A DNA stretch of 64,000 bases from the NCBI RefSeq assembly GCF_002157625.1, contig NZ_BDMM01000003.1:1-64000 (forward strand), in the 5' to 3' direction. Position numbers and translations under genes: made by a program. This document shows positions 19,751 through 22,306 of the stretch, in pieces. Source of the DNA: Brevundimonas sp. SH203. GTDB taxonomy: Bacteria > Pseudomonadota > Alphaproteobacteria > Caulobacterales > Caulobacteraceae. Each line of letters opens with the position of its first letter. Position 1 is the first letter of the stretch. The notes below the pieces were generated by a model. It had not been told where the DNA came from. It made no database searches and worked only from the letters and a program-made list of their open reading frames with translations.

Positions 19751-20682
19751 TGCAGGTCGTTCGCGACTGGCGCGACCTGCCCGACGCCGAGAAAGGCGCC
19801 GCCGTCGCCGTCGGGGCCTTCGACGGGGTGCATCGGGGCCATCAGGCGGTCATCGCCGCGGCGAAGGCGGCGGCCGACCGGCTGGGCGCGCCGCTGGGCG
19901 TGGTCAGTTTCGATCCTCATCCCCGCCGCTGGTTCCAGAAGGACGCCGCGCCCTTTCGCCTGATGACCGCCGACCAGATGACCGAGGCCCTGGGGCCGCT
20001 GGGCGTGGACATCCTGTATCTTCTACCGTTCGACGCCGAGATGGCGGGCATGAGCGACGCCGAATTCGCCGAGCGGGTGCTGGCCCGGGGGTTGGGCGTG
20101 CGACACGCCGCCGTCGGTTTCGACTTCACCTTCGGCAAGGGACGGTCGGGATCGCCCGAGGCCCTGCGCGCCTATGGCGAACGGCTGGGCTTCGGCGTGT
20201 CCACGGTCCAGCGTCTGGACGACGCCGACGGGCTGAAACTGTCGTCCAGCGCCGTGCGCGAGGCGCTGAAGGCCGGCGACATGGACCGCGCCGCCGCCAT
20301 ACTGGGACGCCCCTTCGCCATCCGGGGCGAGGTGATCCACGGCGACAAGCGCGGCCGCACCATCGGCGTGCCGACCGCCAATGTGCCGCTGGGCGACTAT
20401 ATGCGCCCGGCCTATGGCGTCTATGCCACGCGCAGCCGGCTGGCCGACGGGCGCGTGGTCGACGGGGTGGCCAGCCTGGGCGTGCGGCCCATGTATGCGC
20501 TGGAGACGCCGCTGCTGGAGGTCTGGTTGTTCGACTTCGACGGCGACCTGTACGGCCAGGCGCTGGACACCCAGCTGATCGCCTGGCTTCGCGGCGAGGA
20601 GACGTTCGACGGGCTGGACGCCCTGAAAACCCAGATCGACGCCGACGCGGCGGCGGCCCGGGCGGTTCTCAAACGGTCATAG
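19750..20682 (+). CDS. ribF: Bifunctional riboflavin kinase/FAD synthetase
   Basis: This 310-residue enzyme converts riboflavin to FMN and FAD in the cytosol. The N-terminal adenylyltransferase domain has [10 protein letters not shown] (residues 22-31) and SSSAVREAL. The C-terminal flavokinase domain has the PTAN motif (GVPTANVPL) and a YGVYA segment. Both domains are complete and the length is normal. It is translationally coupled to the MaoC gene upstream. Its last six bases overlap the convergent carbonic anhydrase-like gene. Confidence 0.95.
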
Positions 20683-21204
20683 GGGCCGAAGCCCGGCCGC
20701 GAACCGCTTCCAGTTCTGAACATAGTGTTCGGCCGACATCCGAAGCACGGCGACGTGTTCGGGGTCGCGTTCGCGCACCACCTTGCCGGGCTGGCCCATG
20801 ACCAGGCTGTTGTCGGGGATGACCTTGCCCTCGGTGATCAGGGCGTTCGCGCCGATGATGCAGTTGCGCCCGATCCGCGCCCCGTTCAGCACCACCGCCC
20901 CGATGCCGATCAAACTGTAGTCCCCGACCTCGCAGCCGTGCAGCATGGCGTTGTGGCCCACCGTCACCCCCCGCCCCAGAGTGAGCGGCGATCCCAGGTC
21001 TGTGTGCAGGACGCCGCCGTCCTGAATGTTGCTGTCCGGCCCCACCACGATCGGATCGTTGTCGCCGCGCAGGGTCGCGCCGAACCAGACGCTGGCGTTC
21101 GCATGGAGAATCACATTCCCTATCACCGATGCGCTCGGCGCCACCCAGTATTCGCCCTCCGGCGGAAGCTGAGGTTTGCTGTCGCCCAATGCGTAAACTG
21201 TCAT
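20677..21204 (-). CDS. Gamma-carbonic anhydrase-like hexapeptide-repeat protein
   Basis: This 175-residue left-handed beta-helix protein has repeated hexapeptides. The three metal-ligand His positions of the gamma-CA family are H68 (GGVLHTD) and H85 and H90 ([10 protein letters not shown]). It resembles the YrdA/PaaY group, which bind metal and may hydrate CO2 or hydrolyse thioesters. No acyltransferase motif is seen. Start ATG 21204. It faces the ncRNA/phoH region across a 320-bp gap. Confidence 0.9.
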
Positions 21205-21238
21205 CAGAACACAACCTAATCTTTGAAAAACGAGGGCT

Positions 21239-21254
21239 TTAACGGAACGCTAAC
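21239..21254. promoter_or_regulatory. CtrA-like site in the gap between the gamma-CA gene and phoH
   Basis: TTAA-CGGAACG-CTAAC has the correct seven-base spacing of the CtrA consensus and one mismatch in the second half-site. It lies about 35 bp upstream of the gamma-CA gene and about 90 bp before the predicted RNA. This is visible but weak evidence, since such sites occur by chance. Confidence 0.3.
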
Positions 21255-21344
21255 CACGATAGCATCATTCTGTTGATGCGATTCGCGGGTCGCCATTTCG
21301 GCCCTGAATCCGAAGCCGGATCAAGTTCGGTCCGGTCAATCGTC

Positions 21345-21475
21345 GGGGGCTTGTGCGTGGCGCGTTGGGATCCGGGTTCGGTTGTTCGGCGGCGGGTCTG
21401 TCCCGTTGCGGAAGGCCCTGCACTGGACCCGGGCGGCCGTTTCGCGGGCCGCGACCCTTTCCTCCCCAAGCCCAT
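21345..21475 (+). ncRNA. Structured small RNA, possibly 6S RNA (ssrS)
   Basis: A terminator on the plus strand (21478-21508) lies upstream of phoH although the gene before it is on the other strand, so a separate plus-strand transcript must end there. The preceding sequence folds well. The ends pair (GGGCTTG 21347-21353 with CAAGCCC 21467-21473). An inner CCGGGT (21372-21377) pairs with ACCCGG (21427-21432), and an apical hairpin GCGGCGGG-TCTGT-CCCGTTGC sits inside. A small GC hairpin lies on the 3' side of the open centre (21433-21452). That closing stem, open bubble, 3' hairpin and terminal arm match 6S RNA architecture, but I cannot confirm the family. Confidence 0.45.
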
Positions 21476-21477
21476 CC

Positions 21478-21508
21478 AAGGCGGCGCCCGTTCGGGTCCG
21501 CCTTTTTT
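21478..21508 (+). terminator. Rho-independent terminator ahead of phoH
   Basis: AAGGCGG (21478-21484) and CCGCCTT (21498-21504) form the outer stem, with CCCG/CGGG inside and a run of six T at 21503-21508. It ends about 19 bp before the phoH start codon, so it must end an RNA made within the intergenic gap or attenuate phoH. Confidence 0.85.
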
Positions 21509-21526
21509 CATGCCCTGGAGGCGTCC

Positions 21527-22306
21527 ATGACCAAGCGTGCGGCTACGAAACGTCAGTCCCGTGAAAACGGCATCCTGGATTCGCGAGACTTCATCGAGGA
21601 GTCGAAGGTTCGCCGGCTCCATGCGCCGAACCCCTCCCGCTCGGGCTGGTCGCCCTATCCGTCGAACGACGACCGCGACCAGGGCTATCTGAAGACGCTG
21701 AAGCCCAAGTCGGACGGCCAGGCCGAGCTGATGCAGGCCATCGACCACCACAATCTGATCATGGCGCTGGGGCCGGCAGGCACGGGCAAGACCTATCTGG
21801 CGGTGGCCAAGGCGGTCGAGGCGCTGGAGGCGGGCAAGGTCGGGCGGATCGTCCTGTCGCGTCCGGCGGTCGAAGCCGGTGAGTCCATCGGCTTCCTGCC
21901 CGGCGACATGGAGGACAAGCTGGCCCCCTATCTGCGGCCCCTCTACGACGCCCTGTCGGATCGGCTGTCGATGAAGCGGGTCAAGGCGCTGATGGCCGAG
22001 GGGCTGATCGAGATCGCGCCGGTGGGCTATATGCGCGGCCGTACGCTGAACAACGCCTTCATCGTCGTGGACGAGGCGCAGAACTGCACCTACGTCCAGC
22101 TGAAGATGCTGCTGACCCGACTGGGCTGGCATTCGACCATGGTGGTGACGGGCGATCCGCAGCAGTCGGACCTGTTGCCCGGCATCTCGGGCCTGTCGGA
22201 CATCTCGGCGCGGCTGGAGGCGGTGCCCGACATCGCCGTGGTGCGCCTGGCCGAACAGGACATCGTGCGTCACCCGCTGGTCGCCTCGATGATCGGCGTC
22301 CTCTGA
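21527..22306 (+). CDS. phoH: PhoH family ATPase
   Basis: This 259-residue cytosolic P-loop NTPase has Walker A GPAGTGKT (residues 82-89), Walker B IVVDEAQN, and TGDPQQSDL. It matches the PhoH/YbeZ-related group, nucleotide-binding proteins linked to RNA metabolism, but no YbeY-type partner gene lies next to it. ATG 21527 has CTGGAG six bases upstream and directly follows a terminator. The open frame extends upstream to 21353 through the RNA region, which is not coding. Confidence 0.9.
   Translation: MTKRAATKRQSRENGILDSRDFIEESKVRRLHAPNPSRSGWSPYPSNDDRDQGYLKTLKPKSDGQAELMQAIDHHNLIMALGPAGTGKTYLAVAKAVEALEAGKVGRIVLSRPAVEAGESIGFLPGDMEDKLAPYLRPLYDALSDRLSMKRVKALMAEGLIEIAPVGYMRGRTLNNAFIVVDEAQNCTYVQLKMLLTRLGWHSTMVVTGDPQQSDLLPGISGLSDISARLEAVPDIAVVRLAEQDIVRHPLVASMIGVL

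Follow-up and report, generated by a model that had tools for sequence, protein, structure and literature searches.

Which RNA ends at the terminator that stands directly before phoH in Brevundimonas sp. SH203, and where does that RNA belong? We addressed this question in the window, by which we mean the whole stretch of DNA that was analysed (64,000 nucleotides, positions 1 to 64,000 of contig NZ_BDMM01000003.1). The gene upstream of the gap, of the gamma carbonic anhydrase type, lies on the opposite strand, as had been described before, and an RNA with conserved structure and a genuine terminator adjoining phoH very probably starts within the gap, also as proposed. In the best reading of the sequence, this RNA would be the start of the phoH message and not a stand-alone RNA. 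The gap appears to hold a conserved short coding sequence that contains a terminator, and we give a probability of roughly 0.55 to the reading that the leader is a translation-coupled attenuator of the phoH mRNA, with a start near 21272, a leader ORF, a buried terminator and a handover to phoH. A terminator that attenuates the phoH mRNA had been named by the preliminary description as the alternative to its own proposal of a structured non-coding RNA, and this alternative is now the best reading. On the plus strand, the gap from the carbonic anhydrase gene to phoH carries in order a CtrA-like site, a −10 element, two hairpins, a Shine-Dalgarno sequence, the leader ORF with the terminator, and the Shine-Dalgarno sequence of phoH:

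20677-21204, minus strand: gamma carbonic anhydrase-type gene, upstream of the gap (profile search)
21239-21253, plus strand: CtrA-like TTAA-N7-CTAA, one mismatch to TTAA-N7-TTAA (motif counts in relatives)
21260-21265, plus strand: probable −10 element TAGCAT (TANNNT counts and alignment of relatives)
21280-21310, plus strand: 5′ UTR hairpin P1, with GATTCG as its base (48-sequence alignment)
21315-21336, plus strand: 5′ UTR hairpin P2, GCCGGATC / GGTCCGGT (48-sequence alignment)
21345-21349, plus strand: Shine-Dalgarno-like GGGGG of the leader ORF (SD-like motif before the start in 85/86 sequences)
21357-21530, plus strand: leader ORF, GTG start, 57 codons (frame, synonymous excess, freedom from stops)
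21478-21508, plus strand: predicted intrinsic terminator inside the leader ORF (hairpin, covariation, TTT bias)
21503-21508, plus strand: U6 tract of the terminator (sequence)
21517-21521, plus strand: phoH Shine-Dalgarno sequence GGAGG (largely kept in aligned relatives)
21527-22306, plus strand: phoH, a PhoH-family ATPase of 259 aa (Pfam PhoH, E 4.1e-81)
21528-21530, plus strand: leader ORF stop TGA, overlapping the phoH ATG as ATGA (sequence)

Relatives were collected through phoH. The phoH anchor matched 125/131 genomes of the genus, 144/149 of the family, 60/60 of the order and 51/58 of the class, and a further class set searched at a stricter threshold gave 51/288 genomes, including four of the own order. 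Upstream loci were fetched for 87 genomes of the genus, 66 others of the family, 17 others of the order and 29 others of the class. The genus set (87 of the 125 genomes with a phoH match; L020, with a run of N, omitted) came to 86 sequences after one identical sequence was removed. For the family we took 66 of the 120 matching genomes outside the genus; removal of L122, L124, L127 and L130, where the phoH start was not located or the contig ended, left 62, and five phoH starts were shifted by 3 nt. The order set comprises 17 of the 47 non-family genomes, those with loci given, and the 29 class loci were reduced to 26 (L264 omitted; L290 and L299 without a located start).

The leader ORF evolves as a coding sequence. 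Its start codon in the 86 distinct same-genus sequences is GTG in 71, TTG in 9 and ATG in 6, and its frame relative to phoH is constant in 82/86 although its length varies. The stop falls at phoH +1 (ATGA) in 79/86 sequences and at −2 in two more, and among these 81 the leader spans 49 to 64 codons; the four sequences with another frame are L071, L080, L089 and L116. From the start to the U-tract there is no stop codon in the leader frame in any of 85 genus sequences, as compared to 31 and 36 for the other frames; an alternative start at GTG 21353 in the phoH frame was rejected on these counts. In 32 non-overlapping close pairs, the differences before the terminator are distributed over codon positions 1/2/3 as 88/90/141, and 94 of the 185 leader codons with a single change are synonymous (0.508, 32 independent pairs), while random placement gives 0.331 (sd 0.027, maximum 0.418 of 300). 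For the two other frames the ratios of synonymous to non-synonymous changes are 45:136 and 50:138. Sequence evidence supports the ORF and the terminator, as well as the overlap of the two and the conservation of both.

How much of this selection acts on the peptide bears on a second explanation, in which the leader ORF is an independent gene whose small protein would partner or regulate PhoH, while a partial terminator sets the amount of phoH relative to it. The synonymous excess implies some protein-level selection, DPG, RR and PFF are conserved in 24 aligned peptides, and the ORF overlaps phoH translationally. The constraint is nevertheless weak beside that on phoH, with 94 synonymous to 91 non-synonymous changes in the leader as compared to 630 to 41 in phoH (17 pairs). 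No Pfam or NCBIfam family matched the leader peptide at E up to 1, and its AlphaFold model is of low confidence (mean pLDDT 60.5, pTM 0.12). We therefore consider a small protein gene unlikely, although it is the alternative that survives best. The low-confidence model is consistent with a disordered peptide and is no proof of disorder; a folded small protein was dropped as a candidate on the same model, for which DSSP returned nothing.

Some features of the leader vary. An extra insert, hairpin-like by eye, lies between the terminator and phoH in some same-genus sequences. Fourteen carriers keep the leader frame and have 62 to 64 codons (L008, L013, L016, L077, L078, L084, L085, L090, L091, L095, L100, L102, L105 and L111), and two are out of the leader frame (L089 and L116). 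PPG and PPP motifs slow ribosomes. They are frequent in the leader peptides of non-genus relatives (L035, L038, L119, L129, L166, L167 and others), where the own-genus peptides mostly have DPGG.

The terminator itself was correctly placed by the preliminary description: a hairpin followed by U6 occupies 21478-21508 and ends 18 nt 5′ of the phoH ATG (21527), and its stem carries compensatory changes. We aligned 55 distinct sequences from 85, one of the 86 having failed to match the search pattern. The count omits L018, L031, L090 and L092, whose anchor fell wrongly within the loop, as well as L022, L080 and L113, which differ in length, leaving 48. In these, 95.4% of the stem cells are paired and 42 cells are double changes, and 0/500 shuffles are as high on either measure; the covariation score is 0.314 versus 0.140. 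Two other measures, the number of pairs altered on each side and that of additional pair types, are unexceptional, being reached by 61 and 55 of the 500 shuffles. Over the U-tract, the F-F/S motif has TTT as its first Phe codon in 80/81 leader ORFs, and TTT accounts for 6/117 Phe codons in phoH (first 240 codons, 39 phoH genes). This codon bias and the stem covariation indicate that the terminator is selected in addition to the codons, and it appears to be conserved at the expense of codon choice in the leader ORF. A terminator-like hairpin is found at the loose threshold in 48/155 genus shuffles, so that a single terminator is weak evidence and the claim rests on conservation. Selection on one stretch for its codons and, at the same time, for its terminator makes an unusual geometry. 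The gap had been read as an intergenic non-coding RNA, a reading set aside by the conserved ORF that crosses the terminator and extends into phoH. An intergenic terminator, even a good one, need not mean a non-coding RNA.

The arrangement extends beyond the genus. A loose terminator is found within 150 nt of phoH in 86/86 genus, 62/62 family, 13/17 order and 17/26 class sequences, as compared to 31, 26, 21 and 15% of shuffles, which ignore kinship, and a strict terminator in 85/86, 57/62, 12/17 and 11/26, respectively. Nine of the 26 class relatives lack a loose terminator and 15 lack a strict one. An ORF preceded by a Shine-Dalgarno sequence crosses the terminator in 86/86 genus, 55/62 family, 9/13 order and 8/17 class sequences (21, 16, 12 and 9% of shuffles, again with kinship ignored); by the test used, seven of the 62 family sequences have no such ORF. 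In Caulobacter vibrioides DSM 9893 (L253/L157) the layout is the same, with TTG as the start codon and TGATG as the overlap. At the DNA level the gap is conserved over a shorter range: a search of 41 genomes (the own genome and 40 relatives) gave 22 matches, all from the same genus (22/25 including the own genome), and none in the 16 genomes that belong to the order but to another family. The block matched in most genomes, 21252-21338, lies upstream of 21345, the position at which the RNA segment had been made to begin, and the 5′ part had thus been missed.

In some other Caulobacteraceae (L036, L039, L137, L146, L152 and L174) the ORF is in frame into phoH, and such a run-in would yield an N-terminally extended PhoH. 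In the distant class relative L262 the ORF stop abuts the phoH terminator hairpin, which is not inside the ORF. L263 looks similar by eye, but its GTG start has no spaced Shine-Dalgarno sequence.

The start of transcription near 21272 is an estimate from the position of the −10 element. The CtrA consensus is TTAA-N7-TTAA, and the CtrA-like site reported about 90 bp upstream of 21345 is present as TTAA-N7-CTAA at 21239-21253, with one mismatch. Within 60 nt upstream of a GATTC motif, a site that departs from the consensus by no more than one base occurs in 71/86 genus sequences (50/1720 mononucleotide shuffles) but in only 14 of the 52 family sequences with the GATTC anchor (23/1040 shuffles); the exact consensus is in none of the 86 genus or 52 family sequences. 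TANNNT is found 10 to 25 nt upstream of GATTC in 84/86 genus and 39/52 family sequences. A simple scan for terminators and sigma-70 promoters gave nothing at its thresholds. The GATTC motif, at the base of P1 (21280-21284), is present in 86/86 genus and 52/62 family sequences. It is also a GANTC (CcrM-type) site, and it may be methylated in the DNA, act as an element of the RNA, or do both.

The two 5′ hairpins were assessed in an alignment of 48 of 80 distinct 5′ UTR sequences, hand-chosen for spread. The P1 helix is 90.2% paired with double changes in 4/11 pairs, and P2 is 98.7% paired with a double change in 1/8 pairs. Together they are 93.8% paired, and almost all of their 21 double-change cells belong to P1; the numbers of pairs altered on each side and of additional pair types are unexceptional (reached by 23 and 155 of 500 shuffles). 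A comparison of the gap for compensatory changes had been suggested as a check of its structure; such changes are seen in the terminator stem and in P1, and P2 shows little variation.

The small RNA GsrN was considered as a candidate for the locus because of a GGAAC motif and a C-rich stretch. The SigmaT promoter of GsrN consists of GGAAC with CGTT at a spacing of 15 to 17 nt (PMC5869019). Here GGAAC lies at 21244-21248 and CGTT is absent at that spacing (CATT is found at 17 nt). GsrN was rejected, as the −10 misfits and GGAAC is unconserved, being found in few aligned relatives.

How might such a leader work as an attenuator of phoH? Transcription would begin near 21272 from the promoter with the CtrA-like site, and the leader RNA would present in order the two 5′ hairpins, the 57-codon ORF and, in the last third of the ORF, the terminator. 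Owing to the overlap of ORF and terminator, a nearby ribosome should disturb the hairpin, and the terminated RNA lacks the stop codon of the ORF. A ribosome following close behind the polymerase would cover the hairpin and allow read-through into phoH, and the ATGA overlap would pass ribosomes on to phoH. If leader translation failed or lagged, the terminator would form and an RNA of about 237 nt would be released, carrying an ORF without a stop. Translation of the leader peptide thus probably decides the transcription of phoH. That ribosomes exert the control, in which direction and on what signal, and where the leader transcript starts, we infer. Sequence evolution predicts that the short ORF ahead of the structural gene is translated, and an intrinsic terminator is predicted between the promoter and the structural gene. 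Against attenuation are the occurrence of the CtrA-like site in only 14/52 family sequences, the other frame of four of the 86 genus leaders, the weak constraint on the peptide, the run-in of the ORF into phoH in some Caulobacteraceae, the seven family sequences in which no such ORF crosses the terminator, and the frequent absence of the arrangement from close class relatives.

Two further explanations concern the terminated RNA. It could act in trans by base pairing through the C-rich stretch CUUUCCUCCCC, as a weakly suhB/mmgR-like RNA. The suhB/mmgR model aligns over the CUUUCCUCCC stretch and the terminator with 13.2 bits (E 6.1), and similar C-rich stretches recur in many aligned relatives; the score is far under the gathering value of 41 and its E value is at chance level, the region is coding and conservation is poor in the central part of the RNA. 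A trans-acting RNA is accordingly doubtful, and an sRNA of the suhB/mmgR type was rejected as a match far below threshold.

Alternatively, the leader could be of the arfA/brfA type, in which the non-stop mRNA is destroyed by trans-translation and the peptide or RNA is seen only when ribosome rescue fails. Factors of the ArfA type are basic, but the truncated leader peptide has a median net charge of only +1 (range −3 to 6). A terminator lies inside the ORF before its stop and the terminated RNA has no in-frame stop, the same geometry as in brfA, which encodes 72 aa and has a Rho-independent terminator before its stop, as described for that gene in PMC8012679. No rescue-factor family, and no Pfam or NCBIfam family at all, was found at E up to 1, and the leader ORF is coupled to phoH. 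We regard this type as more improbable still.

The proposal that the terminated RNA is 6S RNA is practically dismissed by covariance scans, even though the segment folds locally with paired ends: no match to the 6S model (RF00013) was found at E up to 10 in 21100-21700, and the 6S gene of this genome, above the cut-off (49.6 bits versus 46.4), lies on another contig (G000:C2:75993-76153, L026). The 6S layout proposed for 21345-21508 is not confirmed: this 164-nt segment folds barely better than shuffled sequence (z −1.52; 14/200 shuffles fold equally well). No Rfam family matched in the window at gathering scores, and the two matches from the permissive scan of 21100-21700 (E up to 10) are both at chance level and to models other than 6S.

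Attenuation of the phoH message, our preferred reading, has counterparts in known systems. Leader-peptide attenuators and the phoH leader share a short upstream ORF, a terminator before the structural gene and the need for read-through. Unlike in these attenuators, the terminator of the phoH leader is embedded in the ORF, whose stop overlaps the start of the structural gene; no run of codons for one amino acid is seen, and no antiterminator helix is established (the folds viewed were minimum-energy folds of seven leaders). Mycobacterial phoAT-phoH2 also has a small ORF that overlaps a PhoH-family gene; PhoH2 there has a PIN domain, whereas Pfam finds none in this phoH product. One leader-peptide attenuator is the ilv leader CDS of C. 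crescentus, which a figure legend of PMC4117421 describes as attenuating ilvIH. The arfA/brfA genes resemble the phoH leader in having a Rho-independent terminator within a short CDS, with termination yielding a non-stop RNA (described in PMC8012679); unlike them, the phoH leader has no family match, is not clearly basic and overlaps phoH.

In C. crescentus, CCNA_03973 is a small hypothetical gene in one operon with the PhoH-family gene CCNA_02727, according to the Figure 7 legend of a preprint (PMC10274813), and likewise lies upstream of a PhoH-family gene. It is probably orthologous to the leader ORF, and CC_2644/CCNA_02727 is presumed to be the orthologue of the phoH studied here. Ribosome profiling has added 94 new CDSs in NA1000, some of them apparent leader peptides, and the new small CDSs named in the part of PMC4117421 concerned carry CCNA_039xx tags; CCNA_03973 would be among these. 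The leader ORF is therefore probably not wholly new, and the locus is probably a variant of leader-ORF attenuation whose ORF is already annotated in C. crescentus. The available part of PMC10274813 gives no mechanism, terminator or conservation for CCNA_03973. In open-licence papers, a scope that does not imply absence from print, we found nothing on phoH attenuation or a phoH leader peptide; phoH with an upstream ORF gave only WblC/WhiB7 work, which we judged unrelated, phoH with terminator and Alphaproteobacteria gave phage work, and PMC7987155, on Brevundimonas, CtrA and small RNA, has no phoH in its main text.

PhoH is a putative RNA helicase. A leader ORF with a built-in terminator is a candidate layer of control after initiation of phoH transcription. 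Speculatively, phoH of the Caulobacterales, and perhaps of the Alphaproteobacteria widely, might be under the control of a translation sensor formed by a terminator buried in a leader ORF. If this were true, a round of transcription would end in a phoH mRNA when the first ribosome kept up with the polymerase, and otherwise in a non-stop leader RNA, a load on ribosome rescue; the output of PhoH would then follow how well transcription and translation are coupled. Such control could help explain the induction under carbon or glutamine limitation in C. crescentus. There, CC_2644 is reported as a CtrA target whose transcript rises 44.56-fold in carbon starvation (PMC3073932). CCNA_02727 is reported to be up 10-fold without ntrC and to return to wild-type levels with glutamine, its promoter has NtrC and GapR sites, and the authors infer a mechanism beyond simple direct repression by NtrC (PMC10274813). 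PhoH is down-regulated in Cu-stressed swarmer cells (PMC8224329).
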